Below are positions 23,563 to 38,192 of a stretch of DNA of 53,279 nucleotides, one piece after another. Source of the DNA: Oscillospiraceae bacterium. Its GTDB lineage: Bacteria; Bacillota; Clostridia; Oscillospirales; Oscillospiraceae. The notes under the pieces are model-generated. The model saw nothing but the letters and a program-made list of their open reading frames with translations, did not search any database and was not told the origin of the DNA. Both the position numbers and the translations under genes were made by a program. The DNA is taken from assembly GCA_017440925.1 (NCBI GenBank), contig JAFSAP010000041.1:1-53279 (forward strand), in the 5' to 3' direction. How positions within the stretch are numbered: the first letter of the stretch is position 1; each line of letters begins with the position of its first letter.

Positions 23563-23763
23563 TTACTGCATATTCTGCTCGTAGGCCTCGATCATCTTCT
23601 TGACCATCTGGCCGCCGACGGAGCCTGCCTCACGGGAGGTCAGATGACCGTTGTAGCCGTTAGTCAGGTTGACACCCACTTCCTGGGCAGCCTGCATCTT
23701 GAAACGGTCCATGGCCTCACGAGCCTGAGGGATATTCAGCTGGTTGTTATTAGAGTTGCTCAT
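23563..23763 (-). CDS. Alpha/beta-type small acid-soluble spore protein (copy 1)
   Basis: 66-aa DNA-binding spore protein that coats spore DNA in the forespore. It has the N-terminal Asn-rich MSNSNNNQLNIPQAREAMD, then the conserved blocks (GVNLTNGYNGHLTSREAGSVGGQMVKKMI) including the Glu-x-x-Gly-type GPR-like region. The C-terminus EAYEQNMQ is normal for the family, unlike copies 2 and 3. RBS AAAGGAGAG. It lies behind a sigma-G-like promoter. Confidence 0.95.
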   Translation of the reverse strand: MSNSNNNQLNIPQAREAMDRFKMQAAQEVGVNLTNGYNGHLTSREAGSVGGQMVKKMIEAYEQNMQ

Positions 23764-23842
23764 TGTAATTCTCTCCTTTTTCGTTTTCCGGAAAGCAAGA
23801 TGCCTTCCGGTTTGGAGAACATCTTTTTTCTTTCCGTACACC

Positions 23843-24102: not shown

Positions 24103-24130
24103 TTGACTTTCTTGCTTTTTGCGTTATAAT
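24103..24130 (+). promoter_or_regulatory. Promoter of the ArsR-type regulator gene
   Basis: TTGACT, 16-bp spacer, TATAAT. Confidence 0.7.
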
Positions 24131-24160
24131 ATCTTAAAAACAGAGGTGGTGAAGGCAGGT

Positions 24161-24484
24161 TTGCAGGTAACGGAGAAGGAACTGGCCTTGGTTTTCAAGG
24201 CCCTCAGTGATGAAAACAGAATCCGGATTGTAAATTACCTGTGGGATGGTGAAAAATCTGCCCGCAGACTGCTGGCGATGATGGATATCAGTCAGTCGAC
24301 ATTGTCCCATCATATGAAGATATTATGTGATTCGGGAATTGTGGCGGGCCGCAAAGTTGGAACCTGGATGATTTACAAGCTGTCACTGGAAGGTGTGAAG
24401 ATGGTGCAGGAATATCTGGACTATTTGGCCCGCGCCAGAACGATCTGCCTGGAAAAGTTGATATATGATGAACCGTGCAACTGA
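24161..24484 (+). CDS. ArsR/SmtB-family transcriptional regulator
   Basis: About 107-aa winged helix repressor: LVFKALSDENRIRIVNYL is the ArsR hallmark and STLSHHMKILCDSGIV the recognition helix. The classic CxCxxC metal motif is absent; Cys appears in KILCDSG, in ARTICLE near the C-terminus, and in the terminal EPCN, so any metal(loid) site would be of another ArsR type. Start uncertain (TTG 24161 after GAAGG, or GTG 24149). It leads the double-cubane and sao-like blocks, whose promoters carry TCGATA inverted repeats, and is the likely regulator. Confidence 0.8.
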   Translation: MQVTEKELALVFKALSDENRIRIVNYLWDGEKSARRLLAMMDISQSTLSHHMKILCDSGIVAGRKVGTWMIYKLSLEGVKMVQEYLDYLARARTICLEKLIYDEPCN

Positions 24485-24573
24485 GGATGCTCCTTGGTTG
24501 CACATTTTGTGTTGTCAGGGAAAAACTATCTGAATAATTTGAAGATCACACTTCATTTATCGCGAATACAAAT

Positions 24574-24625
24574 TTGACTATGTAAAATTGATATTGTACA
24601 CTTAAAAAAATTCGATAAATATCGA
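24574..24625 (+). promoter_or_regulatory. Promoter plus TCGATA inverted repeat of the double-cubane operon
   Basis: TTGACT (24574-24579), 17 bp, TACACT (24597-24602). The perfect inverted repeat TCGATA-AA-TATCGA (24612-24625) lies at the likely transcription start, a repressor position. Confidence 0.7.
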
Positions 24626-24709
24626 TATTATGCCTGATGGATACAGTGGGAAAAAGATGCGGTAAAGCGGTGTTTTTCTGATCCGGACAGGCAAAAGGAG
24701 ATGTGTAAC

Positions 24710-25903
24710 ATGTCAATTTCACTCCCGGAGCATTTTGAAGAATTCGCAGATGCCTGCCGGAAAGGTTTTTTGGCGGTTAAGGAGCTGAAGGAAAGCGGAC
24801 AGACCATTTGCGGTACGTTTTGTCAGTATACTCCCACGGAGATTCTTCGAGCTGCCGGACTGTATGAAGTTGGTCTGTGCGGCAAAAGCGCAGCCCCTAT
24901 CAAAACGGCGGAAACCCGGCTGCCGGCCAATCTTTGCCCTCTGATTAAGGCAAGCTACGGCCATGCGCTGGAGGACAGCTGCCCCTATGCTTATTTCTCC
25001 GATATTGTGGTTGGTGAAACCACCTGCGATGGCAAAAAGAAAATGTATGAGCTGCTGGGTGAACTGAAGCCCATGCAGGTTATTCATCTTCCCAATGTTC
25101 CGGATCCGGAACGTTCCATGGAGATGTGGGTCACAGAACTCCGGGAATTTGCCAGAGGCCTGGAGGAAAAGCTGGGCGTTGAGATCACGGAAGAAAAGCT
25201 CAATGAAGCCATCGAATGGAGCAACAAGGAGCGCCGTCAGGCTGCCCGCATCTATGAGCTGGGCCGATATGATCCTCCTGCCATCACCGGAACCCGGATG
25301 CGGGATGTGATGGAAGGCGAGCAGTACATCTTCAACCGAAAAGTGAAATATGAAAAGATGGATGCCATTCTGAACCAGTGCGAAGCAGACTGGCACGCAG
25401 GAAAAGGTCCTTTCAAGCCGGATCCCAACCGTCCCCGGATCATTATTTCCGGCGCTGGTTTGGGCGGCTCTGCCGGCAAGACTGTGAAGGTGCTGGAAGA
25501 ACTGGGCGGCGCTGTGGTTTGTTATGAAGGCTGCAGCGGCATCGTTTCCCGCCGCCGTCTCATCGATGAGGACCGGAGCCGGGATCCCATTGTCCGTATT
25601 GCGGAAAAGTATATTGAGGTTCCCTGTGCTGTGGTTTCTCCCAATCATAAACGGATGGATCAGGTCGAAGCCACCATCAAGGAGTGGAAGGCGGACGGTG
25701 TTGTCAGTGTGACCCTGCATTCCTGCAATCCGTTTGCCATTGAGACAGAAAATATCCGCCGTGTCTGTGAGAAGTGCGGAGTTCCTCTGCTGCACATCGA
25801 AACGGATTTCGGCACAGAAGACCAGGGTCAAATCCGCACCCGACTGGAGGCCTATCTGGAGATGATCCGGGCTCAGAAGGAGGCACACAATGGAAAAAAG
25901 TAA
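24710..25903 (+). CDS. Double-cubane-cluster anaerobic reductase-like protein (2-hydroxyacyl-CoA dehydratase D-component family), copy 1
   Basis: 397-aa homologue of E. coli YjiM and of HgdB/BcrB-type subunits. Conserved features: NLCPLIKASYG, VVGETTCDGKKKMYELL, VVCYEGCSG, VVSVTLHSCNPFAIE and a C-terminal ETDFGTEDQGQIRTRLEA. Cysteines in the NLCP, TTCDG and HSCNP blocks are expected cluster ligands. Family members couple ATP-driven electron transfer to very low-potential reductions; the substrate here is unknown. No HgdC/YjiL-type activator ATPase is in the window. ATG 24710 is spaced correctly from AAAAGGAG; ATG 24701 abuts it. Confidence 0.85.
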   Translation: MSISLPEHFEEFADACRKGFLAVKELKESGQTICGTFCQYTPTEILRAAGLYEVGLCGKSAAPIKTAETRLPANLCPLIKASYGHALEDSCPYAYFSDIVVGETTCDGKKKMYELLGELKPMQVIHLPNVPDPERSMEMWVTELREFARGLEEKLGVEITEEKLNEAIEWSNKERRQAARIYELGRYDPPAITGTRMRDVMEGEQYIFNRKVKYEKMDAILNQCEADWHAGKGPFKPDPNRPRIIISGAGLGGSAGKTVKVLEELGGAVVCYEGCSGIVSRRRLIDEDRSRDPIVRIAEKYIEVPCAVVSPNHKRMDQVEATIKEWKADGVVSVTLHSCNPFAIETENIRRVCEKCGVPLLHIETDFGTEDQGQIRTRLEAYLEMIRAQKEAHNGKK

Positions 25904-26978
25904 GCTGAAGCAGATGATCCGGGACTGCCATGCCCAGAACCGGCCTGTGGCAGTGTCCTTCTGCTCTCATGTGCCCCAGGAAATCCTGGAGGCTGCGGGA
26001 GTGTGTTCCCTTCGTGTTTTGCATACCGATGGCGTGGAGGATATTGCCGGCCAGGCGCTGCCCAGCAATCTGTGTCCACTGGTAAAAGAATGCTATTCCC
26101 TGTGCCAGGGAGACGCGCTGGAGGAAGCGGATCTGATCATCGCGGAAACCTCTTGCGATGGCAAGAAGAAAATGTATGAGCTTCTGACCCGGCAGGAGCA
26201 GCTGTACTACTATCAGGTGCCCCAGGGTGAGGACCGTTCCTATGTCAATCCCCTGATTCGTTCAGAGTGCGGCTGGCTGATCCGGATGCTGCAAAAGCGG
26301 TTCGGCGGGGAAGTGACCGAAGAAAAGCTGCGGACTGCCGCTGAAGCGCTCAATCGGGAGCGACAGAGTGTTATGGATCTGATGGCGATCCAGCAGCAGA
26401 TTCCTCCCGCTGCCTGGGGTAGTGAGATCCTGGAGGCACTGGAAAAGAACCGTCATCATCTGAATCCTGCAGATCGCGCGAAAGCCAATGAGAATACCAG
26501 GGAAATTCTGCTTTCCAGGGGTACCCTTGTGCCGAAGTCTGCCTGCCGTATACTGGTGACAGGCTGTCCTGCCAGCGCGGTTTACCGCAAGCTGGTGGGC
26601 GCAGTGGAAGAGAACGGCGGCTTTGTGGTGTGCTTCGAAAACTGTGAAGTGGTAAAATCCAACCGCCGTCATGTGGACACATCCGCGGCGGATATCATCG
26701 GCGCCATTGCCGACTGCTACCAGGATACGGCCTGTGCCATTATGGCCCCCAATCAGCTGCGGTTCCAGATTCTGGAGCAGCTGATTGAAGCGTATCATGT
26801 GGATGGTATCATTGATCTTGCCTTCCAGACTTGCCATGCCTATACCGTGGAACGGGACAAGATGCGCCGCTTTTGCGCCGAAAAGGACATGCCTTATCTG
26901 GCTATTGAAACCGGATTTACCGATGCCGACCTGGGTCAGATCATCACTCGTGTATCCGCATTTATTGAAATGCTCTAA
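25890..26978 (+). CDS. Double-cubane-cluster anaerobic reductase-like protein, copy 2
   Basis: 362-aa paralogue of the preceding gene, overlapping it by 14 bp. Shared blocks: SNLCPLVKECY, ETSCDGKKKMYELL, ILVTGCPASAVYRKLV, VVCFENCEVV, QTCHAYTVE and ETGFTDADLGQI. The N-terminus is shorter. The C-terminal motifs resemble YjiM more closely than copy 1 does. Tandem, diverged copies suggest an alpha/beta heterodimer like true dehydratases rather than the YjiM homodimer, which is inference. Confidence 0.85.
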   Translation: MEKSKLKQMIRDCHAQNRPVAVSFCSHVPQEILEAAGVCSLRVLHTDGVEDIAGQALPSNLCPLVKECYSLCQGDALEEADLIIAETSCDGKKKMYELLTRQEQLYYYQVPQGEDRSYVNPLIRSECGWLIRMLQKRFGGEVTEEKLRTAAEALNRERQSVMDLMAIQQQIPPAAWGSEILEALEKNRHHLNPADRAKANENTREILLSRGTLVPKSACRILVTGCPASAVYRKLVGAVEENGGFVVCFENCEVVKSNRRHVDTSAADIIGAIADCYQDTACAIMAPNQLRFQILEQLIEAYHVDGIIDLAFQTCHAYTVERDKMRRFCAEKDMPYLAIETGFTDADLGQIITRVSAFIEML

Positions 26979-27000
26979 TAATGAATAAAGGAGAACAACA

Positions 27001-27231
27001 ATGGAAAATCATGAACTGGTATGCTACTGCGACCATGTTACCAAGGGTGAGATCATCGCAGCCATGGAGCAGGGTGCCAAGACTCTGTCTGACATTAAGA
27101 AAATGACCGGTGCCTGCACCAGCTGCAAGTGTGAAGAGATGAATCCCAGCGGCAAGTGCTGCGGCCGGGACATTGCAGCTGTGATGAAGGAATACTGGGA
27201 CGCAAACCCCGATAAGAAGCCCAAGAAGTAA
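27001..27231 (+). CDS. Bfd-like [2Fe-2S]-binding protein
   Basis: 76 aa. VCYCDHVTKGEI, then TGACTSCKC matches the CxC...CxxC pattern of Bfd-like [2Fe-2S] domains found alone or in NirB, NasB and copper chaperones. Extra cysteines follow (CKCEEMNPSGKCC). It ends the operon with the two double-cubane proteins and could be their electron donor or a cluster carrier (inference). RBS AAAGGAG. Confidence 0.82.
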   Translation: MENHELVCYCDHVTKGEIIAAMEQGAKTLSDIKKMTGACTSCKCEEMNPSGKCCGRDIAAVMKEYWDANPDKKPKK

Positions 27232-27243
27232 ACAGATGAATGC

Positions 27244-27276
27244 GCTCCCTGTACAGAAATCCTCTGTACAGGGAGC
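27244..27276 (+). terminator. Terminator between the double-cubane and sao-like operons
   Basis: Perfect 14-bp arms GCTCCCTGTACAGA / TCTGTACAGGGAGC with a 5-nt loop, then TTATTTG. Confidence 0.8.
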
Positions 27277-27323
27277 TTATTTGCGGTTGGAATAAATAAG
27301 GGATATATATTGACGAATGCTTT

Positions 27324-27352
27324 TTGACAATCGATAATTGTCGATATATAAT
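27324..27352 (+). promoter_or_regulatory. Consensus promoter with TCGATA/TGTCGA operator in the spacer
   Basis: TTGACA (27324-27329), exactly 17 bp, TATAAT (27347-27352): a perfect consensus promoter. The spacer contains TCGATAATTGTCGA (27331-27344), the same arrangement of half-sites as at 24612. A bound repressor would block RNA polymerase. A leader of about 90 nt follows. Confidence 0.8.
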
Positions 27353-27445
27353 CATGGTGATTAAATACGTCTGCATGGATAAAATGTTTATTTACTCACT
27401 ATCTGATATCTAATTGCGGTCGTTTGCAGGAAGAGGTGATCCGGA

Positions 27446-27700
27446 ATGAAGCATCCCTGCATTGAATTCATCACTGCCTGCAACTGATGTGAGATCTTTG
27501 GGGAATTCGTGCAATCCCTGGCTCCGGACTTTCCTCAGATTGAAGTACGCTGCTATGAAGCGGGCGTGGATTTTGATTATATTCCCAAATACGGAATGGT
27601 TACCGCCAGCATTATGATCGTCAATGAGTCGGAGGCCATTACGGATCTGAGCAAGTCTGTTATTCGCAAAACATTTAAAAAACTGGCCAAAGTCAGATAG
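27446..27700 (+). CDS. saoT: Thioredoxin-like selenoprotein with CxUC motif (SaoT-like)
   Basis: 84 aa only if the TGA at 27485-27487 is read as selenocysteine. The first codons give IEFITACNUCEIFGEFVQSL, placing Cys12, Sec14 and Cys15 at the end of the first strand, exactly where thioredoxin-fold proteins keep their redox cysteines. The frame continues without a stop to 27700 with plausible fold sequence. RBS AAGAGGTGAT before ATG 27446. A small stem GGGGA-N10-TCCCT starts 12 nt after the TGA and could serve as SECIS. Conventional translation would give 13 residues. First gene of the sao-like operon. Confidence 0.82.
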
Positions 27701-27723
27701 TTGGCCTTCAGGTGGCTTTTATC

Positions 27724-28812
27724 ATGAGCAGTATCATCCAATTTGTATCTGATGTTTTTATGTCTGCCATCAGCATGCTGAACAGCGCATCCGCCTGGAT
27801 GCTCTTCAGCTTCTTTGTGGCAGGCGTCATTCATGAGTTTGTAGGCCCGGACAGAATGCAGAAGTCTGCCATCGGCTCCACCAAGCTGTCCGGCCTTCTC
27901 TGGACAACCTTTACCGGCATGTGTCTGCCAATCTGCAGCTGCGGCACCATCCCCCTGGGCATCAGTATGTATTATTCCGGTGCTTATCTGGGTCCGGTGC
28001 TGACCTTTATGACCTCCACCCCTATGATCAATCCCATCGCCATCATTCTGGCCTACGGATTGCTGGGCAAGGAGATCGCGACCATTTATGTGCTCACCGG
28101 TTTCTTTGCTCCTTTGCTGATCGGTCTGATTGCCAACCGCTTTGGCGGCGATGAGCTTTACTACAAGCCTGCCTATGAAAAGCAGGAGCAGCCCAAAATC
28201 AAGCTGGTCTTTCAGAAACCTCCGGTGTGGAAGCGGATTCTGAAGGGCATCCGCTGGGCATTCACCGAACTGGCAGTGACCATCAGCAAGTACACCGTTT
28301 CCGGTATGCTGATGGCAGGTGTCCTCTTTACCGTGGTTCCCCAGAGTGCCATTTCCCGTTACCTGGGCGATCCCGGCATGGTTTCCTTGCTGGGTATCAC
28401 CGTTGTGGCGGCACTGATGTATGTCTGCGCTGTGGGCCATATCCCCTTCATTGCGGCACTGGTTGCCAGTGGTGCTGCCCCCGGTGTTGCTGTTACTTTC
28501 CTGATGGCCGGCTGCGCCACCAATATCGCGGAGCTTCTGACCATCCGCCGCACCATCGGCAAGCGCAGCATGTGGCTGTACAGTGGTCTCGTGATCCTCT
28601 TTTCCCAGATCGCAGGTTATATCACCAACCGTCTGCTGACCGATTTCGTTCCTGTGCTGGACTATGACTCCGTCAGCAAGAGCATCAGCAGCGCCAACAC
28701 TCTGATCATAGAGACGCCGGACTGGCTGCAGCTGGGATGCAGCATTATCCTCATTGGTTATGCCTGTATCGCACTGTTCCGCTGGCTGAAAAAGCAGCTG
28801 ACCGAAGAATAA
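27724..28812 (+). CDS. saoE: ArsP/DUF318-type permease (SaoE-like efflux transporter)
   Basis: 362-aa inner membrane permease with 8-10 helices and a central loop (about 135-170). Signatures of the ArsP family are TGMCLPICSCGTIPLG (Cys67, Cys71, Cys73) and the second-half repeat CAVGHIPFIAALVASGAAPG followed by MAGCATNIAEL. ArsP exports trivalent organoarsenicals in Campylobacter; thiol-reactive organometal(loid) export is therefore plausible. ATG 27724 is preferred for spacing from AGGTGG. Confidence 0.87.
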   Translation: MSSIIQFVSDVFMSAISMLNSASAWMLFSFFVAGVIHEFVGPDRMQKSAIGSTKLSGLLWTTFTGMCLPICSCGTIPLGISMYYSGAYLGPVLTFMTSTPMINPIAIILAYGLLGKEIATIYVLTGFFAPLLIGLIANRFGGDELYYKPAYEKQEQPKIKLVFQKPPVWKRILKGIRWAFTELAVTISKYTVSGMLMAGVLFTVVPQSAISRYLGDPGMVSLLGITVVAALMYVCAVGHIPFIAALVASGAAPGVAVTFLMAGCATNIAELLTIRRTIGKRSMWLYSGLVILFSQIAGYITNRLLTDFVPVLDYDSVSKSISSANTLIIETPDWLQLGCSIILIGYACIALFRWLKKQLTEE

Positions 28813-28865
28813 TAACGTATATCTGGGCAAGTGTCCTGAAATAAAAAATGTTAGGAGATAACACT

Positions 28866-29198
28866 ATGAAAGTCGCTTACCTGTTTGAATCCACCAACTC
28901 CAGAGAGATCCTGGAAAACATGATCATCCCCCAGATGGAAAAGGGTATCCACGGTGCTGACGTTGTTGGCATGATGTTCTTCTTTGACAACTGCTACATG
29001 CTGGTTGAGGGCAATGACATTGCTGACCGTCTGTCCGCTCTGGCTGAGAAGACCGGCATGCTGCTGATGTGCTGCGACCGTTGCTGCTATCAGCGTGAGA
29101 TCGACAAGAAGCTGGTTTCCCCCGCTGGCATCGGCTGCTTCCCCAACGTTTACGCAGCTCTGGGCGGCGTCGGCGTAGACCAGGTTATTACCCTGTAA
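28866..29198 (+). CDS. saoD: DsrE-related protein (SaoD-like)
   Basis: 110-aa cytoplasmic protein of the DsrE/YchN fold. KVAYLFESTN is the first strand, MMFFFDNCYML carries one Cys, and MLLMCCDRCCYQRE a cluster of four cysteines in the region where DsrE-like proteins bind persulfide. A thiol/selenol relay role is inferred. RBS TTAGGAGA; biased codons indicate good expression. The DUF3343 gene follows in the same reading frame only 9 bp after the stop. Confidence 0.82.
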   Translation: MKVAYLFESTNSREILENMIIPQMEKGIHGADVVGMMFFFDNCYMLVEGNDIADRLSALAEKTGMLLMCCDRCCYQREIDKKLVSPAGIGCFPNVYAALGGVGVDQVITL

Positions 29199-29207
29199 TT
29201 TCTTCCT

Positions 29208-29483
29208 GTGGAAGATTACCTGATCGCTGTGTTCCAGCGGCCCGGCGATGCGGCAATAGCGCAAAGAGACCTGATGGAACGAAATATCAAGGTTGCAATG
29301 ATGCCAACTCCCCGGGGAATCAGTGTATCCTGCGGATTGTCTTTGCGCATTGCTGTTCAGGAGTATGAGACGATAAAACCTGTTTTGCTGGAGATGTTTC
29401 CCGAGAAAGACCGGTGCTGCTTCTTTGCTGCATACAAAGATGGCAAGCGACACGAATTCCACCCGGTTGTATCAGAAACATAG
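29208..29483 (+). CDS. DUF3343 (putative Se/S carrier-like) protein
   Basis: 91 aa. DYLIAVFQRPGDAAIAQRDL, then MMPTPRGISVSCGLSLRI matches the DUF3343 pattern (PTPR-x-IS-x-x-CG) of small Se/S-carrier-like proteins near selenium genes. A pair CC occurs near residue 66. The only workable start is GTG 29208, with no good RBS. It is in frame with the DsrE gene across a TAA, so translation may depend on reinitiation. Confidence 0.8.
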   Translation: MEDYLIAVFQRPGDAAIAQRDLMERNIKVAMMPTPRGISVSCGLSLRIAVQEYETIKPVLLEMFPEKDRCCFFAAYKDGKRHEFHPVVSET

Positions 29484-29504
29484 AACAGTTTGCACTTCAA
29501 AATT

Positions 29505-29537
29505 GGATCCGGCATAGGTGTTCATAATTGTCGGATC
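29505..29537 (+). terminator. Hairpin between DUF3343 and PHP genes
   Basis: GGATCCGGCA pairs with TGTCGGATCC (one G-T), followed by TATTTTAT. A leaky terminator or processing site inside the operon. Confidence 0.45.
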
Positions 29538-29590
29538 CTATTTTATCGTAATTTATATCATTTTTACACGAGAAAGAGGTGTAAATTATA

Positions 29591-30220
29591 ATGTTTGTTG
29601 ATCTTCATGTTCATGAGCGGGCCTTTTCCCTGGATAGCAAGATGTCCTTGGCGGAATTGGTCGACCGCGCAAGGGAAATGGGTATGGGTGCCGTTTGCGT
29701 GACGGACCATGACAGCCTGGGAATCCGGGAAGAAGCAGAGCGTTACTCGAAGGAAGTCGGCTTCCCGATTTTTGTCGGTGTTGAGGTGCTGACCATCCAG
29801 GGTGATATTGTTGCCTTTGGTATTCCCTATGCATTCCAGCCCAGAACCATTGATGCCCAGGAGTTTATCAATTACGTGCATTGCAATGGCGGTGCCTGCT
29901 TCAGTGCCCATCCCTTCCGCAATAACCAGCGGGGACTGGAGGAGCACCTGGCAGTAGTCCGCCGACTGGATGGCGTGGAGGTGCTGAATGGAAGCACTAC
30001 TCTGGAAGCCAACCGGACGGCCCTGGAGTATGCCCACAAATACGGCATTCAGCCTCTGGGCGCGAGTGATGCCCATCATACTGGCCAGCTTGGCAAGTAT
30101 GTGACCTGGCTGCCGGAAGACCCCACCGACCTGCAGTCCTTTATTCGGATTCTGCGGTCCGGTAAGTGCCGCCCGGCGATTTGGGAAAATAACGAATTCC
30201 GCATTGTGGATTCGTTTTAA
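29591..30220 (+). CDS. PHP-domain metal-dependent phosphoesterase
   Basis: 209-aa PHP protein: DLHVHERAFSLDSKMS (HxH motif I), VTDHDSLGIREE (motif II), a Glu in VGVEVLT, SAHPFRNN and GASDAHHTGQLGKYV (motifs III/IV). All metal ligands appear present, so a trinuclear-metal phosphodiesterase or nucleotidase activity is likely. Its link to the surrounding transport genes is unknown. RBS AAAGAGGTG. Confidence 0.85.
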   Translation: MFVDLHVHERAFSLDSKMSLAELVDRAREMGMGAVCVTDHDSLGIREEAERYSKEVGFPIFVGVEVLTIQGDIVAFGIPYAFQPRTIDAQEFINYVHCNGGACFSAHPFRNNQRGLEEHLAVVRRLDGVEVLNGSTTLEANRTALEYAHKYGIQPLGASDAHHTGQLGKYVTWLPEDPTDLQSFIRILRSGKCRPAIWENNEFRIVDSF

Positions 30221-30232
30221 GAGGTTTACCGT

Positions 30233-31078
30233 ATGCCAATCGTTGTAGATCATATTTCAAAAAGCTTTTCCGAGCGTAAGAACAAAAAAATTCGCAAGCA
30301 AGTGCTGAAAGATGTCAGCTTTGAGGTGCCGGATGGCTGCTTCGTGAGCCTTCTTGGTCCGTCAGGTTGCGGCAAAACCACAACCCTGACCATCATTGCC
30401 GGCTTTCAGGACAAAGACAGTGGCGAGATCCTGGTAAACGGCAAGAGTGTCAACGCGCCGGGACCTGACCGTGCCTTCGTGTTTCAGGATTATGCCCTGC
30501 TTCCCTGGCTGCGAGTGGGTGAAAACATCACATACCCCATGAAAAAGCAGAAGATGTCCAAAGCAGATCAGGAAAAACGGCTTGCGGAGCTTCTGGAACT
30601 GGCACAGCTCCAGAACAATAAGAACAGCTATATTTATGAGCTGTCCGGCGGCATGAAGCAGCGCGTCGCCTTGCTTCGGGCGCTGGCCTGCGACCCCAAT
30701 ATTCTATTGATGGATGAGCCTCTGGGTGCTGTGGACTTTCAGATGAGAAAACTGCTGCAGATCCAGTTGGAAGCCATCCTGATGAAACGGAAGATTACCA
30801 CACTGATGGTGACCCATGATGTGGATGAAGCTGTTTATCTCAGCGACCGGGTCATCGTTATGGGACGGGATCATGGCAATATTCTCGCAGATGTAACCAT
30901 TGACCTGCCCAGACCCAGAAACCGCAGCAATCCTGCCTACCATGCCTATGCTGACCAACTGACAGAACTGTTGAAAAAAGCACTGGATGGTGCGGTGTTT
31001 ACCAAGGAAGACGAAGACATTATGAATTTTATCAGAAATTCCGAACATGAGGCACGGGGAGGTGGCAGTGCAGAATGA
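30233..31078 (+). CDS. saoA: ABC transporter ATP-binding protein (SsuB/TauB type; SaoA-like)
   Basis: 281 aa. Walker A LLGPSGCGKTTT, Q-loop FQDYALLPW, signature ELSGGMKQRV, Walker B ILLMDEPLGAVD and the H-loop VTHDVDEAV. It is of the nitrate/sulfonate/taurine importer class and would energise the permease with which it overlaps by 4 bp (ATGA). RBS AAGAGG. Confidence 0.9.
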   Translation: MPIVVDHISKSFSERKNKKIRKQVLKDVSFEVPDGCFVSLLGPSGCGKTTTLTIIAGFQDKDSGEILVNGKSVNAPGPDRAFVFQDYALLPWLRVGENITYPMKKQKMSKADQEKRLAELLELAQLQNNKNSYIYELSGGMKQRVALLRALACDPNILLMDEPLGAVDFQMRKLLQIQLEAILMKRKITTLMVTHDVDEAVYLSDRVIVMGRDHGNILADVTIDLPRPRNRSNPAYHAYADQLTELLKKALDGAVFTKEDEDIMNFIRNSEHEARGGGSAE

Positions 31079-31893
31079 AGACGGCACCGAACAGCCATCT
31101 GAAATCACTTTCACAGTCATCCCAGACCCAGCGGAATGCCAGCAAGTTTGTCAAAAAATTCAACCTGCCGGCGCTGATCCTGCTCGCCATAGTCTGTATC
31201 GGATGGTTTTTGGGCGCACATCTGTATAAGAAACCCTTTGTGTTCCCCTATTTTGAAGAGGTCATTGGCAGTATCGCCTACGCATTGTCGGACCTGGCTG
31301 TGCTGCGTGCCATCGGCATTACTGTCCGACGGGTGCTTCTGGGTACTTTTTATGGTGTCCTCATCGGTGTTCCCATTGGTATGGCCATGGGATTCTCCAC
31401 CACAATCATGAATGCACTGGCGCCCTATGTCAATGCGCTGCGCCAGATCCCCACTACTGCATGGGTCCCTATGGCAATCATCTGGTTTGGCCTGGGTGAT
31501 GGACCTACCTTATTTGTCCTGGCACTGCACGGCGTGTTTATCGTCATTTTGAATACGGCCGCTGGTGTGCTTGAGATCAATAAAGAATATTACAATGCTG
31601 TTCGCAGTATGGGCGCGAACACATTGGAAGTGATCACGGATGTTGTCCTGCCCGGTTCTCTGCCGGGTATCATCACAGGTATTCGTCTGGCTCTGGGCAT
31701 GGGCTGGATGACCGTTGTGTGAGCGGAGTTCATTGCAACGAACTCCGGCTTTGGCTACATGATCCACTATGCGCAGATGGATATGAGTACATCTACAGTG
31801 ATGGCTTATATGATGATTACCGGCATGCTGGGTTTCCTGCAGGACCGCCTGCTGGTATTCCTGGAATCTGCCTTGCTGCGCTGGAAGCGGTAG
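31075..31893 (+). CDS. saoP: ABC transporter permease, selenoprotein (SaoP-like)
   Basis: 272 aa with Sec216, if TGA 31720-31722 is read through to TAG 31891. The N-terminal 215 residues hold five membrane helices and the EAA-type cytoplasmic loop (AVRSMGANTLEVITDVVLPGSLPGI). They stop exactly at GWMTVV, where SsuC/TauC-type permeases continue with an Ala-Glu motif. After the TGA the frame gives AEFIATNSGFGYMIHYAQ and a last helix, which are conserved in the family. Thus the TGA replaces a residue inside the last membrane region. A perfect hairpin begins 1 nt after the TGA. Confidence 0.85.
31724..31747 (+). promoter_or_regulatory. Candidate bacterial SECIS hairpin
   Basis: CGGAGTTC-ATTGCAAC-GAACTCCG: 8-bp perfect stem, 8-nt loop, starting 1 nt after TGA 31720-31722. 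It is inside the coding sequence, as bacterial SECIS elements are. The loop begins 9 nt after the TGA, somewhat closer than in E. coli fdhF. Confidence 0.65.
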
Positions 31894-31964
31894 CCTTTGG
31901 ATCGTTGTATACTTCCCAGTGTGGGAAGCTGCAATAAAAGTAAATATATAAGAGGAGATTTGAC

Positions 31965-33350
31965 ATGAAAAGAAAGCAATTTATTGCTCTGCTACTGGCA
32001 TGCGCAATGCTTTTGCTGGCACTGAGCGGCTGCCATGACAGCAGCCAGAAAACAAACATCAAGCAGACGGACTATGATCCTGCTGCCGCTGCAGAACCCT
32101 ATCTGAAAAACCTGCTGGAGATGACTGACGCCGACAAGGAATACGTCATCGAAATGGGCTACAATGACTGCGATCACATGGTCACTGCTATCATTGGTCA
32201 GGAAGCCGGTATTTATGAAACCCTGGGTCTGACTGTCAATGTTACCAAGACCAGCAAGACCAAGGACGGCCTGGTTTCCGGTGAAATGGACGTGGGTTAC
32301 GCCAGCCTGACCGGCATGATTAAGGCAGGCGCTGAGGGCGCTCCCGTCATTATTCCCGCCGGCAGCCATCTGGGCGGCTCCAAGTACCTGGTTGTCCGTC
32401 CCGACATCGAGACCCCTGCAGACATGCTGGGCAAGAAGCTGGTTGTTGGTGCTACCGATATGACCCAGCCCAACTGGCGTTCCTTCTGCAACCAGCTGGG
32501 TATTCCCTTCATCGTTGATTACTACGATCAGTTCGATATGTCTTCCTCCGAGAAGAATACCGCACTGAAGGCTGGCGTTATTGACGGCTATATCGAATGT
32601 GACCCCTATGCATCCATTGCCGAGATGGAAGGCTTCGGTAAGATCGTCGGCACCGAATGGGGCGCCGCCAATGTTTCCGAGGACCGTACCGAAGGCTGGG
32701 GTGTCCACTGCGGTTACTATCTGAATACCGACTTCGTGGCTGCCCATCCTGCACTGGCACAGCGTCTGGTTCTGGCTCACTGCCTGGCTATCCAGTATAT
32801 GTACCTGCATCCCTATAACGCAGGCATGATGTTCGCTGATAGCTTCGGCGTGGATCCCACTGTTGGTCTGCGTACCATTTACATCAAGCTCTGTGCAGAA
32901 GGCCGTACCATCTGCTACAAGATCGACGACACCAACATTCAGAACTACAAGGATTACTTTGCAAGCTTCGCTATCGCTGAGACAGACCGTCCTCAGGTAG
33001 AATTCCTGGATGACTTTGTGGATACCACCATTTATGAGACTCTGAACATGGTGGACTTCTATGAATTCATCGCCAATGAGATTGATCCCCTCTATGCCAT
33101 CGGCACTTCCTATGCGGACTTCCTGGAGATCGCCGAAGACATCGACGGCGTTGACCATTCCAGCACTGTCGGCAAGACTGTTGAGAAGTGGATGGATGGC
33201 AGCACCATCGTCTCTCCCCTGGACCAGACCCAGCGTCTGTGCGAGTATGACTTCAGCGAAGGTTATATCAACATGACCTGGACTGTGGATCCCGCAAGCC
33301 TCGGCCTGGAGGATCTGTTTGAAAACTATGTGGCAGGCGAACTGCAGTAA
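31965..33350 (+). CDS. saoX: ABC transporter substrate-binding lipoprotein (NMT1/TauA-like; SaoX-like)
   Basis: 461-aa lipoprotein (lipobox LALSGC, Cys23). The binding domain starts at YVIEMGYNDCDHMVTAIIGQEAGIY (only part is diagnostic), followed by VNVTKTSKTKDGLVSGEMDVGYAS, as in periplasmic-binding fold II proteins for sulfonates or thiamine precursors. It is about 130 residues longer than TauA, with an acidic C-terminal extension. The Cys in NDCDH sits in the presumed ligand cleft, and a soft-metal ligand is possible. Strong codon bias suggests high expression. RBS GAGGAG. Confidence 0.85.
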   Translation: MKRKQFIALLLACAMLLLALSGCHDSSQKTNIKQTDYDPAAAAEPYLKNLLEMTDADKEYVIEMGYNDCDHMVTAIIGQEAGIYETLGLTVNVTKTSKTKDGLVSGEMDVGYASLTGMIKAGAEGAPVIIPAGSHLGGSKYLVVRPDIETPADMLGKKLVVGATDMTQPNWRSFCNQLGIPFIVDYYDQFDMSSSEKNTALKAGVIDGYIECDPYASIAEMEGFGKIVGTEWGAANVSEDRTEGWGVHCGYYLNTDFVAAHPALAQRLVLAHCLAIQYMYLHPYNAGMMFADSFGVDPTVGLRTIYIKLCAEGRTICYKIDDTNIQNYKDYFASFAIAETDRPQVEFLDDFVDTTIYETLNMVDFYEFIANEIDPLYAIGTSYADFLEIAEDIDGVDHSSTVGKTVEKWMDGSTIVSPLDQTQRLCEYDFSEGYINMTWTVDPASLGLEDLFENYVAGELQ

Positions 33351-33375
33351 GCTGTCATTATGATGTAAACAAAGG

Positions 33376-33403
33376 CTCCCTTCCGCCTTTTGGCGGAAGG
33401 GAG
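33376..33403 (+). promoter_or_regulatory. Strong hairpin between saoX-like and saoC-like genes
   Basis: Perfect 12-bp arms CTCCCTTCCGCC / GGCGGAAGGGAG with TTTT loop but no following T-run. Probably mRNA stabilisation or partial attenuation, giving more binding protein than downstream products. Confidence 0.55.
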
Positions 33404-33456
33404 GCTTCTGCGCATATAGAGCAAATTCGAAAACCAAAAGAGTGGTGAAAAACAAT

Positions 33457-33969
33457 ATGCGGAAATGGAAAAAACAGCTTCTTTGCTTTGTTCTGTCCAT
33501 AGCTGCGTTGGTGGGTCTGGTATACCTGCGGGACTTTTTGAAAGAGAAGGATGAGGCCGCGGAAATGCAGTCCAGCAATGGCCGCCAGTACGCGCCTTTT
33601 GTGGACAAGGCTGATCCTATGTATCAGTTCTACGTGGCTGCGCATCCGGAACAGGAGATCATTCTCGCTAGTATTGGCGATATAACGGATGATGGTGTGG
33701 ATGAGTTGGTGGTCATTTACCGTGCCAATGCTGATGGCGCCTGTGAAACGGTGGTTCTGGTGAACGAGAACGGTAATTACTATGAGACCACTCCCACCCC
33801 AGCGCCCCGGGAGAACCAGAAGATGCGTTTCTTCAACATGGATAAAAAGGATGTTATGGAGCTTCTGATCACCGGCAGTAAAGACGGCGAGGTGGGCTAT
33901 GCCATCTATCGGATTATTGACCGGGAACTGATCAATTTCTTCGGAGAGGGCATGGAGGACTGCTGCTAA
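33457..33969 (+). CDS. saoC: Membrane-anchored Cys-Cys-COOH protein (SaoC-like)
   Basis: 170 aa. One N-terminal membrane helix (about 8-25) follows a basic KWKK, then an extracytoplasmic domain with an FG-GAP/EF-hand-like acidic strand (IGDITDDGVDELVVIYR). It ends MEDCC, that is Cys-Cys at the free C-terminus, which would be a flexible dithiol for soft metal or redox exchange. Homologues named SaoC can carry Sec here. GTG codons at 33442 and 33445 are alternative starts. Confidence 0.8.
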   Translation: MRKWKKQLLCFVLSIAALVGLVYLRDFLKEKDEAAEMQSSNGRQYAPFVDKADPMYQFYVAAHPEQEIILASIGDITDDGVDELVVIYRANADGACETVVLVNENGNYYETTPTPAPRENQKMRFFNMDKKDVMELLITGSKDGEVGYAIYRIIDRELINFFGEGMEDCC

Positions 33970-33985
33970 TCGGAGGACATTTGCT

Positions 33986-34774
33986 TTGGATATGTCTTTA
34001 AACCAGAGAATCAAGATTGTTCTTGCGCTGGCCGCGGTGATCTTTGCAATACTCTATTTCTTCTTTCCCCGGGACGAGGAAAAGGAGATCGGTGCCATCC
34101 GTGTAGGTGCCGGTAAGGACATCACCGGTGTGCTGCTGGAAAGCATTATTGCGGAAGCGGAGCAGGATAATAATCAGGATTCGATTTTAACAGCCTATAT
34201 TTTCGTGGATTGCTGCTCCAACACAGCCCAGTGGGCGCTGCAGGTGGAGGAAATCGATATGGGGTTCTACTGCTCTTCTGCCGCTATTGCCATGTTGAAT
34301 CAGGTGGATGGCTTTGAACTCTATGCACCCATTATCATGAACAGCGAAGTAATCGCCACCCTGCCGGAAACCAACGAAATTGCTTCTGTGGGAATTCCCA
34401 GAAAACGTACATTTCTGGGAAGTTTGGTATCCCAGAACTATCCGGAAGTCGAGGAGATCCGTGAGATCGACCGCACCTATTTTGGTTATTCTGTAAAGCT
34501 GGAAGAGGTAAATGGTGCAGTTCTGGATGTGATGGATGCTGCATCAAATGCGGAAGACTTCACATATCGACCCCTGACAAACCAGCCCTATATTTCCTAT
34601 TGCATGGTAGTGCGGGAAGATCTGATCGGAACAGATACCTTCAACGATTTTCTGCGGTATTATGAAAGAGCGATCGAAAAACTGAATACTACGGAAGAGA
34701 AGGTCCGACTGATGAAGATGGATGAAGAATTCTGGGAAATGTCCATGCTGGAATTTCTTCCCATATCTGATTAA
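33986..34774 (+). CDS. saoB: Second binding-protein-like membrane-anchored protein (SaoB-like)
   Basis: 262 aa from TTG 33986 (GGAGGA 8 bp upstream; ATG 33992 is too far). One N-terminal helix (11-27) with no lipobox, then a periplasmic-binding-fold-like domain: AIRVGAGKDITGVLLESI, then TAYIFVDCCSNTAQWALQVEEIDMGF (only its VDCC core is notable, Cys76-Cys77). Adjacent cysteines at this point fit a position that can be Cys-Sec in relatives. It may hand substrate to, or take it from, the ABC importer (inference). Confidence 0.78.
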   Translation: MDMSLNQRIKIVLALAAVIFAILYFFFPRDEEKEIGAIRVGAGKDITGVLLESIIAEAEQDNNQDSILTAYIFVDCCSNTAQWALQVEEIDMGFYCSSAAIAMLNQVDGFELYAPIIMNSEVIATLPETNEIASVGIPRKRTFLGSLVSQNYPEVEEIREIDRTYFGYSVKLEEVNGAVLDVMDAASNAEDFTYRPLTNQPYISYCMVVREDLIGTDTFNDFLRYYERAIEKLNTTEEKVRLMKMDEEFWEMSMLEFLPISD

Positions 34775-34809
34775 AAAAGCATCGGATTTTCTGAAATCCG
34801 ATGCTTTTT
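34774..34809 (+). terminator. Terminator of the sao-like operon, shared with SASP 2
   Basis: 16-bp perfect arms AAAAAGCATCGGATTT / AAATCCGATGCTTTTT with a 4-nt loop; works on both strands. Confidence 0.9.
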
Positions 34810-34821: not shown

Positions 34822-35085
34822 TTAAATACAGATAGTCGCTATGTATTTAATCTTATTCTTGTGCCCTATGGCAATTCTGCTTTGTCTGTCATATCTCGCA
34901 GTTCGCACGGGACAAATGTTCTTTACCATCTGGCCTCCGACGCTACCTGCCTCACGGGAAGTCAGGTGACCGTTGTAGCCATTGGTCAGGTTAACGCCGA
35001 CTTCCTGGGCAGCCTGCATCTTGAAACGGTCCATGGCCTCACGAGCCTGGGGGACATTGATCTGATTGTTGTTGGAATTGCTCAT
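34822..35085 (-). CDS. Alpha/beta-type SASP (copy 2) with replaced C-terminal tail
   Basis: 87 aa. The first 56 residues match copy 1 almost residue for residue, but after QMVK the usual KMIEAYEQ tail is replaced by NICPVRTARYDRQ and a basic, Cys-containing extension of about 30 residues. Copy 3 has a homologous tail, so it was inherited, not a random frameshift. The conserved SASP C-terminal helix is therefore altered, and DNA binding or function may differ. RBS AAAGGAGAG. Confidence 0.88.
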   Translation of the reverse strand: MSNSNNNQINVPQAREAMDRFKMQAAQEVGVNLTNGYNGHLTSREAGSVGGQMVKNICPVRTARYDRQSRIAIGHKNKIKYIATICI

Positions 35086-35102
35086 TTCGATTCTCTCCTT
35101 TT

Positions 35103-35137
35103 GCTTTCTTCGGAAGAAGTTGCTTTCCGAAGAAAGC
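35103..35137 (-). repeat. 5'-UTR hairpin of SASP 2
   Basis: 13-bp perfect arms GCTTTCTTCGGAA / TTCCGAAGAAAGC with 9-nt loop, between the sigma-G-like promoter and RBS. The same arms occur in the SASP 3 leader at 53249-53279, and a shorter CCGGAA/TTCCGG version precedes SASP 1. Confidence 0.75.
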
Positions 35138-35155
35138 ATTTTCGTTCCGTACTCC

Positions 35156-35308: not shown

Positions 35309-36385
35309 TTACGATTTGGGCAGAGCATCTGAAATCAGATTTCGGTACATCTCGTCCATCAAATCGCAGTCATAGAACAGCTTATAATATGCAATCACTT
35401 CTTTTTGTAAATCGTATTCGGTGTATTCCGGGTATAGCAACTGCCCCAGCCAGAGCATACCTAAATACCGCTGCACAGCAGGCGGCGAAGACAGCCATCC
35501 GTAAGGGCCTGTGGGTGTCTTATAGAAATTGCCCTGAGCCACAGCCCCTACGCTCTGCCACTGGGGGGAAAGCGCAATATCTTCATAGCAGCTGTCAGGC
35601 GCAAAAATAATTACTTCGGGGTTCCAGACCAGGATCTGCTCCAAATCTACTTCGTTGCCTGCGCCGCTGGACACCACTTCCTCCAGAACGGCAAGATTCT
35701 TACCCATCATGTTGATGGTTTCGGCGTGGAAGGAGCCTTCCGCGATGACATTGACACCCTTATCGCCGAGGCAGTACAGCAGGCTTTTCCGGGCATTGGC
35801 AGCATCGACGCGTTCCATCATGGCGGTCATCATGGCATAGGTTTTTTCGCACCAAACGGCCAGTTCTGCTGCTTTATCTTCACGGTTCAGCAGCTTGCCT
35901 AAGGTTCGGTAGGCATCCGGGGCAGTGGCCACGGTGGCATCGATATGGATAAAAGGAATGCCGGTCTGCTCTGTCAGGGCCGTCAGGTCATCGGCTGTGG
36001 TTTTCTTGGGTTCGCCAATGTCGATGACCACATCGGGATCTGCTGCCAGCAGGGCTTCCAGATCCATTTCCCCCTTGCCGCCGTAAAGCTGGCCGATCTC
36101 CGTTTTCTCCCAGATATAGCTGGGCAGATAGGGGGCTGCATCCTCCGTATAGGCATTGCTGACACCCACCAGCATATCTCCTGCAAGGGGCAGAATGTAG
36201 ATCTGGGACAGAGGGCCGGAGATGGCAATGGTTTCAATCTGTTCTGGAAGAGATACGGTTCTTCCGGTGGAGTCGGTAAACTCTCGGAGTGTTTCCAGCG
36301 TATCCGCCTCCGGTGCCTGAGCAGTTGCCCCACAGCCGCAAAGCAGTAAGGACAGAATCAAAAACATAACAGTCAGCTTTTTCAT
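35309..36385 (-). CDS. ABC transporter substrate-binding lipoprotein (BtuF/FecB/MolA class)
   Basis: 358 aa, lipobox LLLCGC. Class III binding protein: DSTGRTVSLPEQIETIAISG start strand, LLAADPDVVIDIGE (linker helix region) and LVWNPEVIIFAPDSC. Such proteins bind cobalamin, haem, siderophores, or (MolA of Haemophilus) molybdate/tungstate. Being the last gene of an operon that starts with molybdenum-cofactor genes favours oxyanion uptake. Cys in APDSCYED and YDCDL are unusual. Confidence 0.85.
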   Translation of the reverse strand: MKKLTVMFLILSLLLCGCGATAQAPEADTLETLREFTDSTGRTVSLPEQIETIAISGPLSQIYILPLAGDMLVGVSNAYTEDAAPYLPSYIWEKTEIGQLYGGKGEMDLEALLAADPDVVIDIGEPKKTTADDLTALTEQTGIPFIHIDATVATAPDAYRTLGKLLNREDKAAELAVWCEKTYAMMTAMMERVDAANARKSLLYCLGDKGVNVIAEGSFHAETINMMGKNLAVLEEVVSSGAGNEVDLEQILVWNPEVIIFAPDSCYEDIALSPQWQSVGAVAQGNFYKTPTGPYGWLSSPPAVQRYLGMLWLGQLLYPEYTEYDLQKEVIAYYKLFYDCDLMDEMYRNLISDALPKS

Positions 36386-36397
36386 GGATTTTCCTCC

Positions 36398-37177
36398 TTA
36401 TGCGGTAATGTGGGCCGGGATGCAGATCCGGGCCTTGTCATGATACAGGCTTACCACTTCCACCTCCACGCCGTAAAGGGCACGGATGGTTTCTTCCGTG
36501 AGAACTTCTTCCGGGGTACCTTCCTTCAGGACCCGGCCATCCTGAATGGTGAGGATCCGGTCGGAGAACAGGTAGCTCTGCTCCGGGTGGTGGGTGGTCT
36601 GGATGACGGTGTAGCCCTCCCGGGCCAGACTTCGTGCCTGCTCCAGCACCCGCAGCTGATTGCCGAAGTCCAGATTGGCCGTGGGTTCATCCAGCATCAG
36701 CACCGGAGCCTTCTGCACCAGCGCCCGGGCAATGAGCACCAGCTGCTGCTCGCCGCCGGAGAGCCGGTGGAAGCACCGCAGAGCCAAATGGGAAATGCCC
36801 ACCTTCTCCATGGCCCACTGGCAGATTTCCACATCCTGCTTTTTGGGACTGCGGAAGGTAGAAAGGCCGCTGGTACGGCCCATAAGGACGATGTCGGAAA
36901 CGCTGTAATTGAAAATGGGATGGCTGGACTGAGGGATGTAGGCAATGTGCTTTGCCATTTCCCGGACAGAAAAGCTGCGCACATCGGTGCCGTCCACGCT
37001 CACTGTGCCCGTATAACCGGAAAGCAATCCCAGAACACAGCGGAACAAGGTGCTTTTGCCCACACCGTTGGGGCCCAGGATGGAGAGAAATTCGCCGCTG
37101 TTTGCTGTAAAGCTGATATCATGGAGCACCTGACGGTATCCATAGGAAAAATTCAGGTTTCTGACCTCAATGCTCAT
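36398..37177 (-). CDS. ABC transporter ATP-binding protein (FecE/BtuD class)
   Basis: 259 aa: Walker A LGPNGVGKSTLF, Q-loop IPQSSHPIF, signature RLSGGEQQLVL, Walker B VLMLDEPTANLD, H-loop TTHHPEQ. Start at 37177 (AAAGGTGG) overlaps the permease end by 11 bp; the ORF is open to 37222. Probable energiser of molybdate/tungstate uptake. Confidence 0.9.
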   Translation of the reverse strand: MSIEVRNLNFSYGYRQVLHDISFTANSGEFLSILGPNGVGKSTLFRCVLGLLSGYTGTVSVDGTDVRSFSVREMAKHIAYIPQSSHPIFNYSVSDIVLMGRTSGLSTFRSPKKQDVEICQWAMEKVGISHLALRCFHRLSGGEQQLVLIARALVQKAPVLMLDEPTANLDFGNQLRVLEQARSLAREGYTVIQTTHHPEQSYLFSDRILTIQDGRVLKEGTPEEVLTEETIRALYGVEVEVVSLYHDKARICIPAHITA

Positions 37178-38192
37178 AGTGATCCACCTTTCCCATGATG
37201 AGCCACAGAAAGAAGGGCGCACCGATGAAGGCTGTTAAAATGCCGATGGGGATGCCGGCAGTGGTGACGTTTCTCGAAACATTGTCCACCACCAGCAGGA
37301 AGAGGCTGCCGCCCAGCATGGAGGCAGGCATGAGGAACCGATAATCGCTGCCCACCAAACGCCGCATCATGTGGGGGATCACCAGGCCCACCCAGCCGAT
37401 CATACCGCTGACAGAAACTGCCGAAGCCGTCACCAGAGTAGAGCAGACCACGATGCCAAACCGGATACGGGGCGCATTGACACCCATGGCCCGGGCCTCA
37501 TCGTCACCCATGGTGATAACGTTTAACTGCCACCGCAGCAGAAGCAGAGGGATCAGGCCGAAGAGCATGGCAGGCAGAACAAAGAGGATATCCCCCCATT
37601 TGGCACCGCTGAGGCTGCCCATGAGCCAGTAGGTGATCTGGGGCAGCTGGTTGTTAGGGTCTGCCACCAGTTTCAGGAAAGAAGTTCCTGACTGAAAGAG
37701 GGACGATACCATGATGCCCGCCAGCACCAGACCCAGCACCCGGTCACCTCTCGCATGGCGGCTGACGGTGAATACCAGCGCCACGGTAGCAAGGCTTGCT
37801 GCAAAGGCACCCACAGTGATACCCACACTGGATGCCCCCAGCAGAATGGCAAGTGCGGCACCGAAACCTGCACCGGCGGAGGCACCCAGAATGTCAGGAG
37901 AAGCCATGGGATTCTGGAACACGCCCTGATAGGCGGCACCGGCGGATGCCAGACAGGCACCCACCAGAACACTCAGGAGCACTCTGGGCAAACGGATATT
38001 CCAGACGGCAGTCTCCACGGAAGCAGACCAGAAGGAAGAAACCGGAAGGCCCAGCTTCGCACCCAGAACCCCCAGAAGTTCTCCGATGGAAACAGGATAC
38101 CGGCCCAATGTAAAGGAAGCGAGAATACAGATCATCAGCCCAGCCGCCATGACCCACAGGGTCCGGCGGTGCTTTTTTTCGATGTTATTCAT
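37167..38192 (-). CDS. ABC transporter permease (FecCD family)
   Basis: 341-aa permease with about ten membrane helices and the FecCD blocks GACLASAGAAYQGVFQNPMASPDILGASAGAGFG (its core PMASPDILGAS is diagnostic) and VSVSGMIGWVGLVIPHMMRR. It pairs with the ATPase and binding protein downstream and overlaps the DUF364 gene upstream by 8 bp. Confidence 0.92.
   Translation of the reverse strand: MNNIEKKHRRTLWVMAAGLMICILASFTLGRYPVSIGELLGVLGAKLGLPVSSFWSASVETAVWNIRLPRVLLSVLVGACLASAGAAYQGVFQNPMASPDILGASAGAGFGAALAILLGASSVGITVGAFAASLATVALVFTVSRHARGDRVLGLVLAGIMVSSLFQSGTSFLKLVADPNNQLPQITYWLMGSLSGAKWGDILFVLPAMLFGLIPLLLLRWQLNVITMGDDEARAMGVNAPRIRFGIVVCSTLVTASAVSVSGMIGWVGLVIPHMMRRLVGSDYRFLMPASMLGGSLFLLVVDNVSRNVTTAGIPIGILTAFIGAPFFLWLIMGKVDHYEH

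Follow-up and report, generated by a model that had tools for sequence, protein, structure and literature searches.

Recurrent linkage of the Sao genes with double-cubane reductases

The 53,279-nt contig JAFSAP010000041.1 of an Oscillospiraceae bacterium (assembly GCA_017440925.1; hereafter, the window) carries at 24103-34809 a gene block in which a genuine Sao system, SaoABCDEPTX, lies next to two overlapping genes for reductases of the double-cubane family, and we found this linkage of Sao genes with double-cubane reductases to recur across phyla. Sao, the selenocysteine (Sec)-assisted organometallic system, is a predicted system reportedly described by Haft and Gwadz in 2023. We tentatively interpret the block as a form of Sao in which SaoL, the MerB-like lyase, is not detected, and which is joined to a two-gene double-cubane reductase to handle a thiophilic substrate, with an organometal(loid) as the likeliest candidate.

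The block consists of 14 genes, all on the plus strand, at 24119-34774. Eight of these, forming a single block on one strand within 27446-34774, scored above the cut-offs of the respective NCBIfam models, with E-values (6e-29 to 2e-157) that exclude chance, so that their membership in Sao is secure. The set comprises SaoT (27446-27700; 99.6 bits vs a cut-off of 65), a thioredoxin-like selenoprotein with a CNUC motif and Sec14 (TGA at 27485-27487); SaoE (27712-28812; 524 vs 325), an ArsP-family efflux permease; the DsrE-related SaoD (28848-29198; 186 vs 169), with a CC..CC arrangement; the ABC ATPase SaoA (30233-31078; 412 vs 360); the ABC permease SaoP (31075-31893; 311 vs 295), with Sec216 (TGA at 31720-31722); the substrate-binding lipoprotein SaoX (31965-33350; 394 vs 300); SaoC (33442-33969; 148 vs 80), a Cys-Cys-COOH protein; and SaoB (33986-34774; 207 vs 140), a binding-protein-like product with Cys-Cys. 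The original prediction, which described a system resembling Sao, was thus confirmed by the family models, and every gene that it named was located in the block. What it called ATP-class reductases are indeed two reductase-family proteins, of the double-cubane (2-hydroxyglutaryl-CoA dehydratase D-component, HGD-D) family, in which ATP is the business of a separate activase.

To place the block among its relatives, species genomes were scanned with an alignment of SaoE and the best 80 of 81 loci were kept; four loci with a distant SaoE-like match only (L115-L118) and a fragment (L111) were left out of the counts. The 79 rows examined (75 obtained via SaoE, three further loci and the window) were merged at a SaoE identity of at least 85% into 57 non-redundant loci. 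Two loci, L037 and L058, apparently come from one genome (same SaoL place, G544/G687), so that the 57 loci represent at most 56 genomes and the 79 rows at most 78. Each of the 79 loci has at least two Sao families, in line with the co-inheritance that the original prediction implied, and the record titles span Clostridia-type organisms, Actinobacteria, Desulfobacteraceae, Syntrophobacteraceae, Synergistaceae and Brachyspira. Within 8 kb of the Sao core genes, as counted with our own profiles rather than NCBI models, we found a double-cubane reductase in 29 of the 57 loci, SaoL in 29, DUF3343 in 19, an activase in 12 and a molybdopterin oxidoreductase in 9. Since the sequence reaches 5 kb beyond the Sao genes in both directions in just 19 of the 57 loci, a missing neighbour often reflects a contig end.

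At the genome level, a double-cubane gene above the NCBI cut-off was present in 49 of the 51 Sao genomes searched (48/50 excluding the genome of the window), these being the window's own genome, all 25 in which SaoL had no match and a diverse selection of 25 that have SaoL; the two lacking such a gene (L095 and L107) each have partial matches. Among genomes of the class taken as controls, the figure was 20 of 196 (19/195 excluding the own genome). Because Sec use confounds the association between Sao and the reductase, SelB was searched in the same 196 genomes: 33 were above the cut-off, and double-cubane genes occurred in 17 of these as compared with 3 of the 163 SelB-less genomes. SaoX, in the 391-genome class sample, was found in the own genome and in G544, G553 and G583, the last three lying outside the 196. 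The 48 of 50 Sao genomes stand against 16 of 32 SelB-bearing class genomes without Sao (Fisher p 1e-6, a guide only, because the two groups differ in phylogeny).

Other neighbours recur as well. The molybdopterin oxidoreductase near Sao in 9 of the 57 loci is accompanied by the reductase in one of them (Fisher p 0.012, post hoc; p 0.044 when restricted to the 19 loci that extend 5 kb to either side), a hint that the two are rarely found together. Such oxidoreductases stand beside Sao in L059, L063, L068, L069, L071, L073, L074, L084, L086, L090, L100, L101 and L109, some with MoeA/MobA-type genes. In records of Lachnospiraceae, Dorea-like ones among them, a LysR regulator recurs near Sao (for example, L111, 7687-8625), the one scanned exceeding the cut-off of the selenium-metabolism model NF040786, and a small protein resembling heavy-metal-associated domains by eye lies next to Sao in seven loci (including L055, 13776-13982), with no NCBIfam match at E 1e-10. 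In the stretches examined around the distant SaoE-like permeases of L115 and L117 (Aminicenantes), L116 and L118, no other Sao gene was found.

Both reductase proteins retain the presumed ligand cysteines of a double-cubane cluster

The two reductase genes, for which we use the working names HgdA (24701-25903; 447 bits vs a cut-off of 350) and HgdB (25890-26978), overlap by 14 bases. HgdB scores 311 bits, below the cut-off of 350, as a diverged relative of the double-cubane cluster protein (DCCP) family. A gene for a Bfd-like [2Fe-2S] protein (27001-27231; PF04324), a candidate electron donor, follows. HgdA has all eight cysteines conserved among the HgdA-like sequences of Sao loci, and six of its cysteines (C41, C79, C109, C278, C309 and C342) align with cysteines of DCCP, just as C25, C62, C89, C252, C282 and C315 of HgdB align with cysteines of both DCCP and BzdN; the printed alignment of HgdA with BzdN places C109 and C309 one residue out of register. 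We infer that the six cysteines common to DCCP and BzdN are the ligands of the [8Fe-9S] cluster. Two further cysteines, each present in 45 of 49 HgdA-like relatives, are missing from HgdB and from BzdN. The idea that HgdB had lost a sub-cluster, as in BzdO, was ruled out, as the two missing cysteines are also absent from the double-cubane protein BzdN and the six shared ones are kept. HgdB-like genes stand beside HgdA-like genes in five loci (the window, L043, L064, L066 and L099), and HgdA and HgdB may form a heterodimer with two double cubanes.

In a tree of the reductases from Sao loci and three further copies from the own genome, HgdA falls into a clade of 12 sequences, of which the other 11 share 60-94% identity with it (94% for the copy of L043, 60-78% for the ten others). 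The own genome's three other double-cubane copies above the cut-off are 35-45% identical to HgdA. The 10 of 12 clade members that were placed score 434-472 bits, as compared with at least 484 for control genes above the cut-off outside the own genome, a gap that we take as an indirect sign of a bond between the HgdA clade and Sao.

Double-cubane and HGD-D proteins work with a separate ATP-dependent activase. No activase gene lies within the block at 24103-34809; the genome has one match to TIGR00241, on contig C46, beside another double-cubane gene. There, at L130 6792-11888, the double-cubane gene and the activase are convergent to a second SsuABC-like importer (read by eye), whose binding protein shares the His of SaoX at the His135 column and has a Cys three columns past the one of Cys69. 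Pairing of a double-cubane reductase with an importer may be a wider theme.

SaoL is not detected in many Sao genomes

SaoL, which the original prediction proposed to look for elsewhere in the genome, gave no match in the assembly, which is 68% complete. Across the 79 genomes, 49 had a SaoL above the cut-off, 4 a weak match and 26, the own genome included, no match, so that SaoL is not part of every Sao set. In the ten loci nearest to the window in SaoE (65-74% identity), SaoL was present in one, as compared with 45 of 65 other loci (p 0.0006, for genomes that are related and not independent), and a double-cubane gene lies nearby in 8 of the 11 loci that these ten form with the window.

Selenocysteine and the putative ligand residues

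Two proteins of the block, SaoT (CxUC) and the permease SaoP, occur in the Sec form. They are the only Sao proteins of the block in this form, SaoB, SaoC and SaoX being Cys forms here. In relatives, the column of the SaoT TGA holds Sec in 36, Cys in 18 and other residues in 25 of the 79 aligned sequences, and that of the SaoP TGA holds Sec in 60 and Cys in 15 of 75. Sec also appears in relatives at sites occupied by Cys in the window: the Cys-Cys of SaoB is Cys-Sec in 34 of 70 copies, and the column of SaoX Cys212 is Sec in 7 of 68. SelB and tRNA-Sec were both above cut-off in the own genome, adjoining on contig C25, where open reading frames (ORFs) read by eye resemble SelA, YedE, a Sec-lyase/cysteine desulfurase and glycine-reductase type proteins. 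Judged by these columns and this machinery, both in-frame TGAs are Sec codons.

SaoX carries Cys69, Asp70, Met72, His135, Cys212 and Asp213 invariantly (68/68, with Sec counted as Cys), and His71 in 67 sequences; a second alignment (n = 47) confirmed the six invariant residues. Such a Cys/His/Met set would suit a soft metal(loid) or selenium ligand. This composition is difficult to reconcile with an ordinary sulfonate- or taurine-type import operon carrying a redundant exporter, a reading that has in its favour the membership of SaoX, SaoP and SaoA in the SsuABC/TauABC group; the invariant residues, the Sec in the permease and the regular partners SaoE, SaoT, SaoD and SaoC make it very improbable.

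A sequence motif common to the promoters of the reductase and Sao units

The block begins with a gene for an ArsR/SmtB-family regulator (24119-24484; NF033788, 79 bits vs a cut-off of 55), by which a promoter-like TTGACT-16-TATAAT lies at 24103-24130. A second promoter-like site, TTGACA-17-TATAAT (27324-27352), which matches the consensus at 12 of 12 positions, precedes SaoT, and a terminator-like hairpin (27244-27276) lies 3' of the Bfd-like gene. A 17-base pattern, a putative operator, occurs twice in the window without mismatch on the plus strand: before HgdA, upstream of the reductase pair (TCGATAAATATCGATAT; 24612-24628), and before SaoT, inside the promoter-like site (TCGATAATTGTCGATAT; 27331-27347). 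The pattern was derived from its own two sites and first spotted by eye, and is thus post hoc; in 16 of 3000 shuffles, the two intergenic regions shared a 17-mer at 15/17 or better. Of 138 loci searched, three gave an exact 16-base form, each listed with one of the two sites, and all three are pieces of the window itself; of the relatives, L039 and L043 have just matches with 2-3 mismatches, the three matches of L043 being reached by 7 of 200 shuffles. The motif suggests a common regulator for the reductase and Sao units.

Control by the ArsR protein, as the original prediction had it, finds indirect support in the motif common to the two promoters. The ArsR gene is rare at other Sao loci, its profile having matched four places in all: three with Sao (the window, L052 and L094) and L118, which is not a Sao locus. 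In classical ArsR/SmtB proteins, a Cys pair lies at the DNA-binding helix. The protein of the window is without it, having no Cys in EKSARRLLAMMDIS and, by eye, cysteines in ILCDSG, in TICLEK and near the C-terminus. Many sensors of this family use other sites, and the missing pair bears on the ligand site only.

The hairpin, together with the separate promoter-like site before SaoT, is what one would expect if HgdA, HgdB and the Bfd-like gene were an independent neighbouring operon without a role in Sao, as are the many loci, often ending at contig edges, in which no reductase lies within 8 kb. Yet the adjacency recurs in loci titled with several phyla, double-cubane genes are in excess over SelB-bearing controls at the genome level, and the motif is common to both promoters; we therefore consider such independence improbable.

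The block is patchily distributed and likely acquired horizontally

SaoE was above its cut-off in 1 of 295 genomes of the order, the own one (64 others had weaker ArsP-type matches), and SaoX was found in 4 of 391 genomes of the class and 1 of 101 of the genus, so that the distribution of the block is patchy. Its G+C content is 0.51 as compared with 0.54-0.55, and horizontal gain is likely. No empty insertion site was found in the genus, the flanking gene being too rare, and no SaoE match at E 1e-60 was found in 72,556 plasmid records.

The presence of the block in this genome alone among 101 of the genus (by SaoX) and 295 of the order (by SaoE above cut-off), together with a neighbouring 719-aa gene whose matches are just partial and weak and come from 3 of the 19 other relatives, could also be accounted for by a binning error that brought in a contig from another organism. 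The tetranucleotide profiles argue otherwise: both flanks correlate with eleven other stretches of the assembly at r 0.98, and the block, at 0.95, lies within the range of those stretches (0.93-0.98), as compared with 0.32-0.90 for eleven Sao loci of other organisms. We regard a misplaced contig as a slim prospect.

Genes for similar alpha/beta small acid-soluble spore proteins flank the block in the same orientation (23563-23841 and 34822-35139, both on the minus strand), and their DNA aligns over about 310 columns, the second differing at the C-terminus. This pair might mark the recombination that brought in the block. Directly 3' of the block, at 35309-38192 on the minus strand, lies an ABC importer of the iron-siderophore/B12 type (binding protein by Pfam, ATPase and permease by eye). 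Within the block, two more genes complete the set: a DUF3343 gene for a putative Se-S carrier (Se_S_carrier; PF11823) at 29208-29483, with a GTG start, and one for a PHP-family hydrolase, by profile match, at 29591-30220.

A proposed mechanism and its alternatives

Overall, the most likely function for a block so composed is to take up a thiophilic compound of the organometal(loid) or organoselenium kind, process it reductively and export a product. SaoX, with its soft Cys/His/Met/Asp residues, and SaoB and SaoC, with Cys-Cys sites probably outside the membrane, would capture the compound, most likely an organometal(loid), and SaoP and SaoA would import it, Sec216 of SaoP being a possible soft ligand en route. 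SaoT, through its CxUC motif, and SaoD might then strip or exchange the compound's ligand. HgdA-HgdB, charged by the ATP-dependent activase encoded elsewhere (contig C46) and possibly supplied with electrons by the Bfd-like protein, could reduce the compound, or cleave the bond on which SaoL would act in other genomes, after which SaoE would export the product. The DUF3343 protein may carry released selenium or sulfur, and the ArsR protein is a candidate regulator at the motif before HgdA and SaoT.

The same parts could instead serve selenium supply, an alternative that we find possible, if rather unlikely: an organoselenium compound (e.g., methylated selenium) would be imported and its selenide freed by HgdAB, DUF3343 and SaoD would carry this to SelD, and SaoE would remove the by-product. 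DUF3343 is a proposed Se carrier; 2-hydroxyglutaryl-CoA-dehydratase-like and activase genes are listed with Sec lyase, YedF and DUF3343 by Lin et al. 2015 (PMC5322559); and a figure legend on the selenium genes of methyl-selenium clusters names Sao as well as dicubane genes (PMC10418091), in a work that also has the term double-cubane together with selenium and selenocysteine. Double-cubane genes moreover track SelB in the class genomes, and hits to the selenium-metabolism LysR model at E ≤ 1e-40 come from 7 of the 93 neighbour ORFs, one of that family being above the cut-off. On the other side, the relationship of SaoL to MerB and of SaoE to ArsP points to metals, the Sec link is partly trivial because Sao proteins themselves contain Sec, and no recurrent methyltransferase partner, corrinoid-dependent ones included, was seen among the 25 commonest families per scan in the 168 ORFs scanned of 210 neighbour ORFs selected, a survey in which single ones could be missed.

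Returning to the preferred interpretation, a Sao form without detected SaoL that is joined to the reductase pair, one can formulate a more specific version, which we consider doubtful: a SaoL-less Sao lineage would use a dedicated two-subunit double-cubane reductase, both subunits of which keep the [8Fe-9S] cysteines, for ATP-driven, low-potential cleavage of carbon-metal(loid) or carbon-selenium bonds instead of MerB-type protonolysis. If true, this would give archetypal double-cubane proteins a physiological role.

Several observations weigh against the preferred interpretation. No double-cubane reductase lies within 8 kb in 28 of the 57 loci, of which just 19 extend for 5 kb on either flank, and the phylogenetic mismatch between Sao and control genomes blunts the genome-level comparison. 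Across the 57 loci, an adjacent reductase is not negatively associated with SaoL (Fisher p 0.59 with SaoL at the genome level, 1.0 at the locus level), which rules out that the reductase replaces SaoL everywhere; because the two are not mutually exclusive, support for such replacement is confined to their co-occurrence pattern in the near group, where L039 and L042 have neither SaoL nor a reductase close by and the contig of L047 is short. As the tree held only reductases of Sao loci and the three own copies, it does not show a tie of the HgdA clade to Sao, which could dissolve with wider sampling. Among the relatives' loci scanned, the PHP profile matched one other Sao locus (L039) and the Bfd profile just three, and of 101 genomes in the genus this one alone has the block. 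RNA folds just 3' of the TGAs were no better than shuffles (z 0.24 for SaoT and -1.05 for SaoP), and because no selenocysteine insertion sequence (SECIS) element was detected by folding, the Sec reading rests on homology and the Sec machinery.

Comparison with known systems

A 2026 review describes the Sao operon and states that the precise roles need further work (PMC13188914), and our literature search, in sources available in part, found no test of Sao function. The recurrent linkage of Sao with the reductase across phyla gives both Sao and DCCP a concrete test, and if Sao handles organomercury or organoarsenic, it would bear on how anaerobes process such compounds.

The block is like Sao, as defined by NCBIfam models between NF040727 and NF040736, in its eight families above cut-offs, in Sec of SaoT and SaoP at Sec/Cys columns and in its conserved neighbourhood. 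It differs from Sao, as far as that system is known through citing papers, in that SaoL was not found, that SaoB, SaoC and SaoX are in the Cys form, and that the reductase pair and the Bfd-like, DUF3343 and PHP genes share the block. SaoE resembles the ArsP and SO_0444 efflux permeases, being a member of Pfam ArsP_1 and scoring 186 bits with the SO_0444 model; this is below the SO_0444 cut-off of 300, whereas its score with the SaoE model is far above the cut-off.

DCCPs (PDB 6ENO, 7YYL), which act with an ATP-dependent activase, are approached by HgdA above the family cut-off, by the six cysteines in both HgdA and HgdB and by the activase in the genome. A 2025 paper describes DCCPs as homodimers in which each monomer carries a double cubane, and states that the archetypal ones have no known biological function (PMC11971306). 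In contrast to the single gene and homodimer of DCCP, the window has an unlike, overlapping gene pair and an unlinked activase, and HgdB is without the two additional cysteines that most HgdA-like relatives retain. In the same paper, BzdNO, a class I benzoyl-CoA reductase, likewise has two unlike subunits of the same fold family, of which BzdN has a double cubane with six Cys-ligated irons and BzdO one [4Fe-4S] cluster with three Cys (PMC11971306). Unlike BzdO, HgdB keeps all six cysteines, and hence does not look like that single-cluster subunit; nor was any trace of CoA-ester chemistry seen in the block, though no search aimed at it was made. The form in which SaoL is not detected and a double-cubane reductase pair is present is a variant of the known Sao system, and one worth testing.

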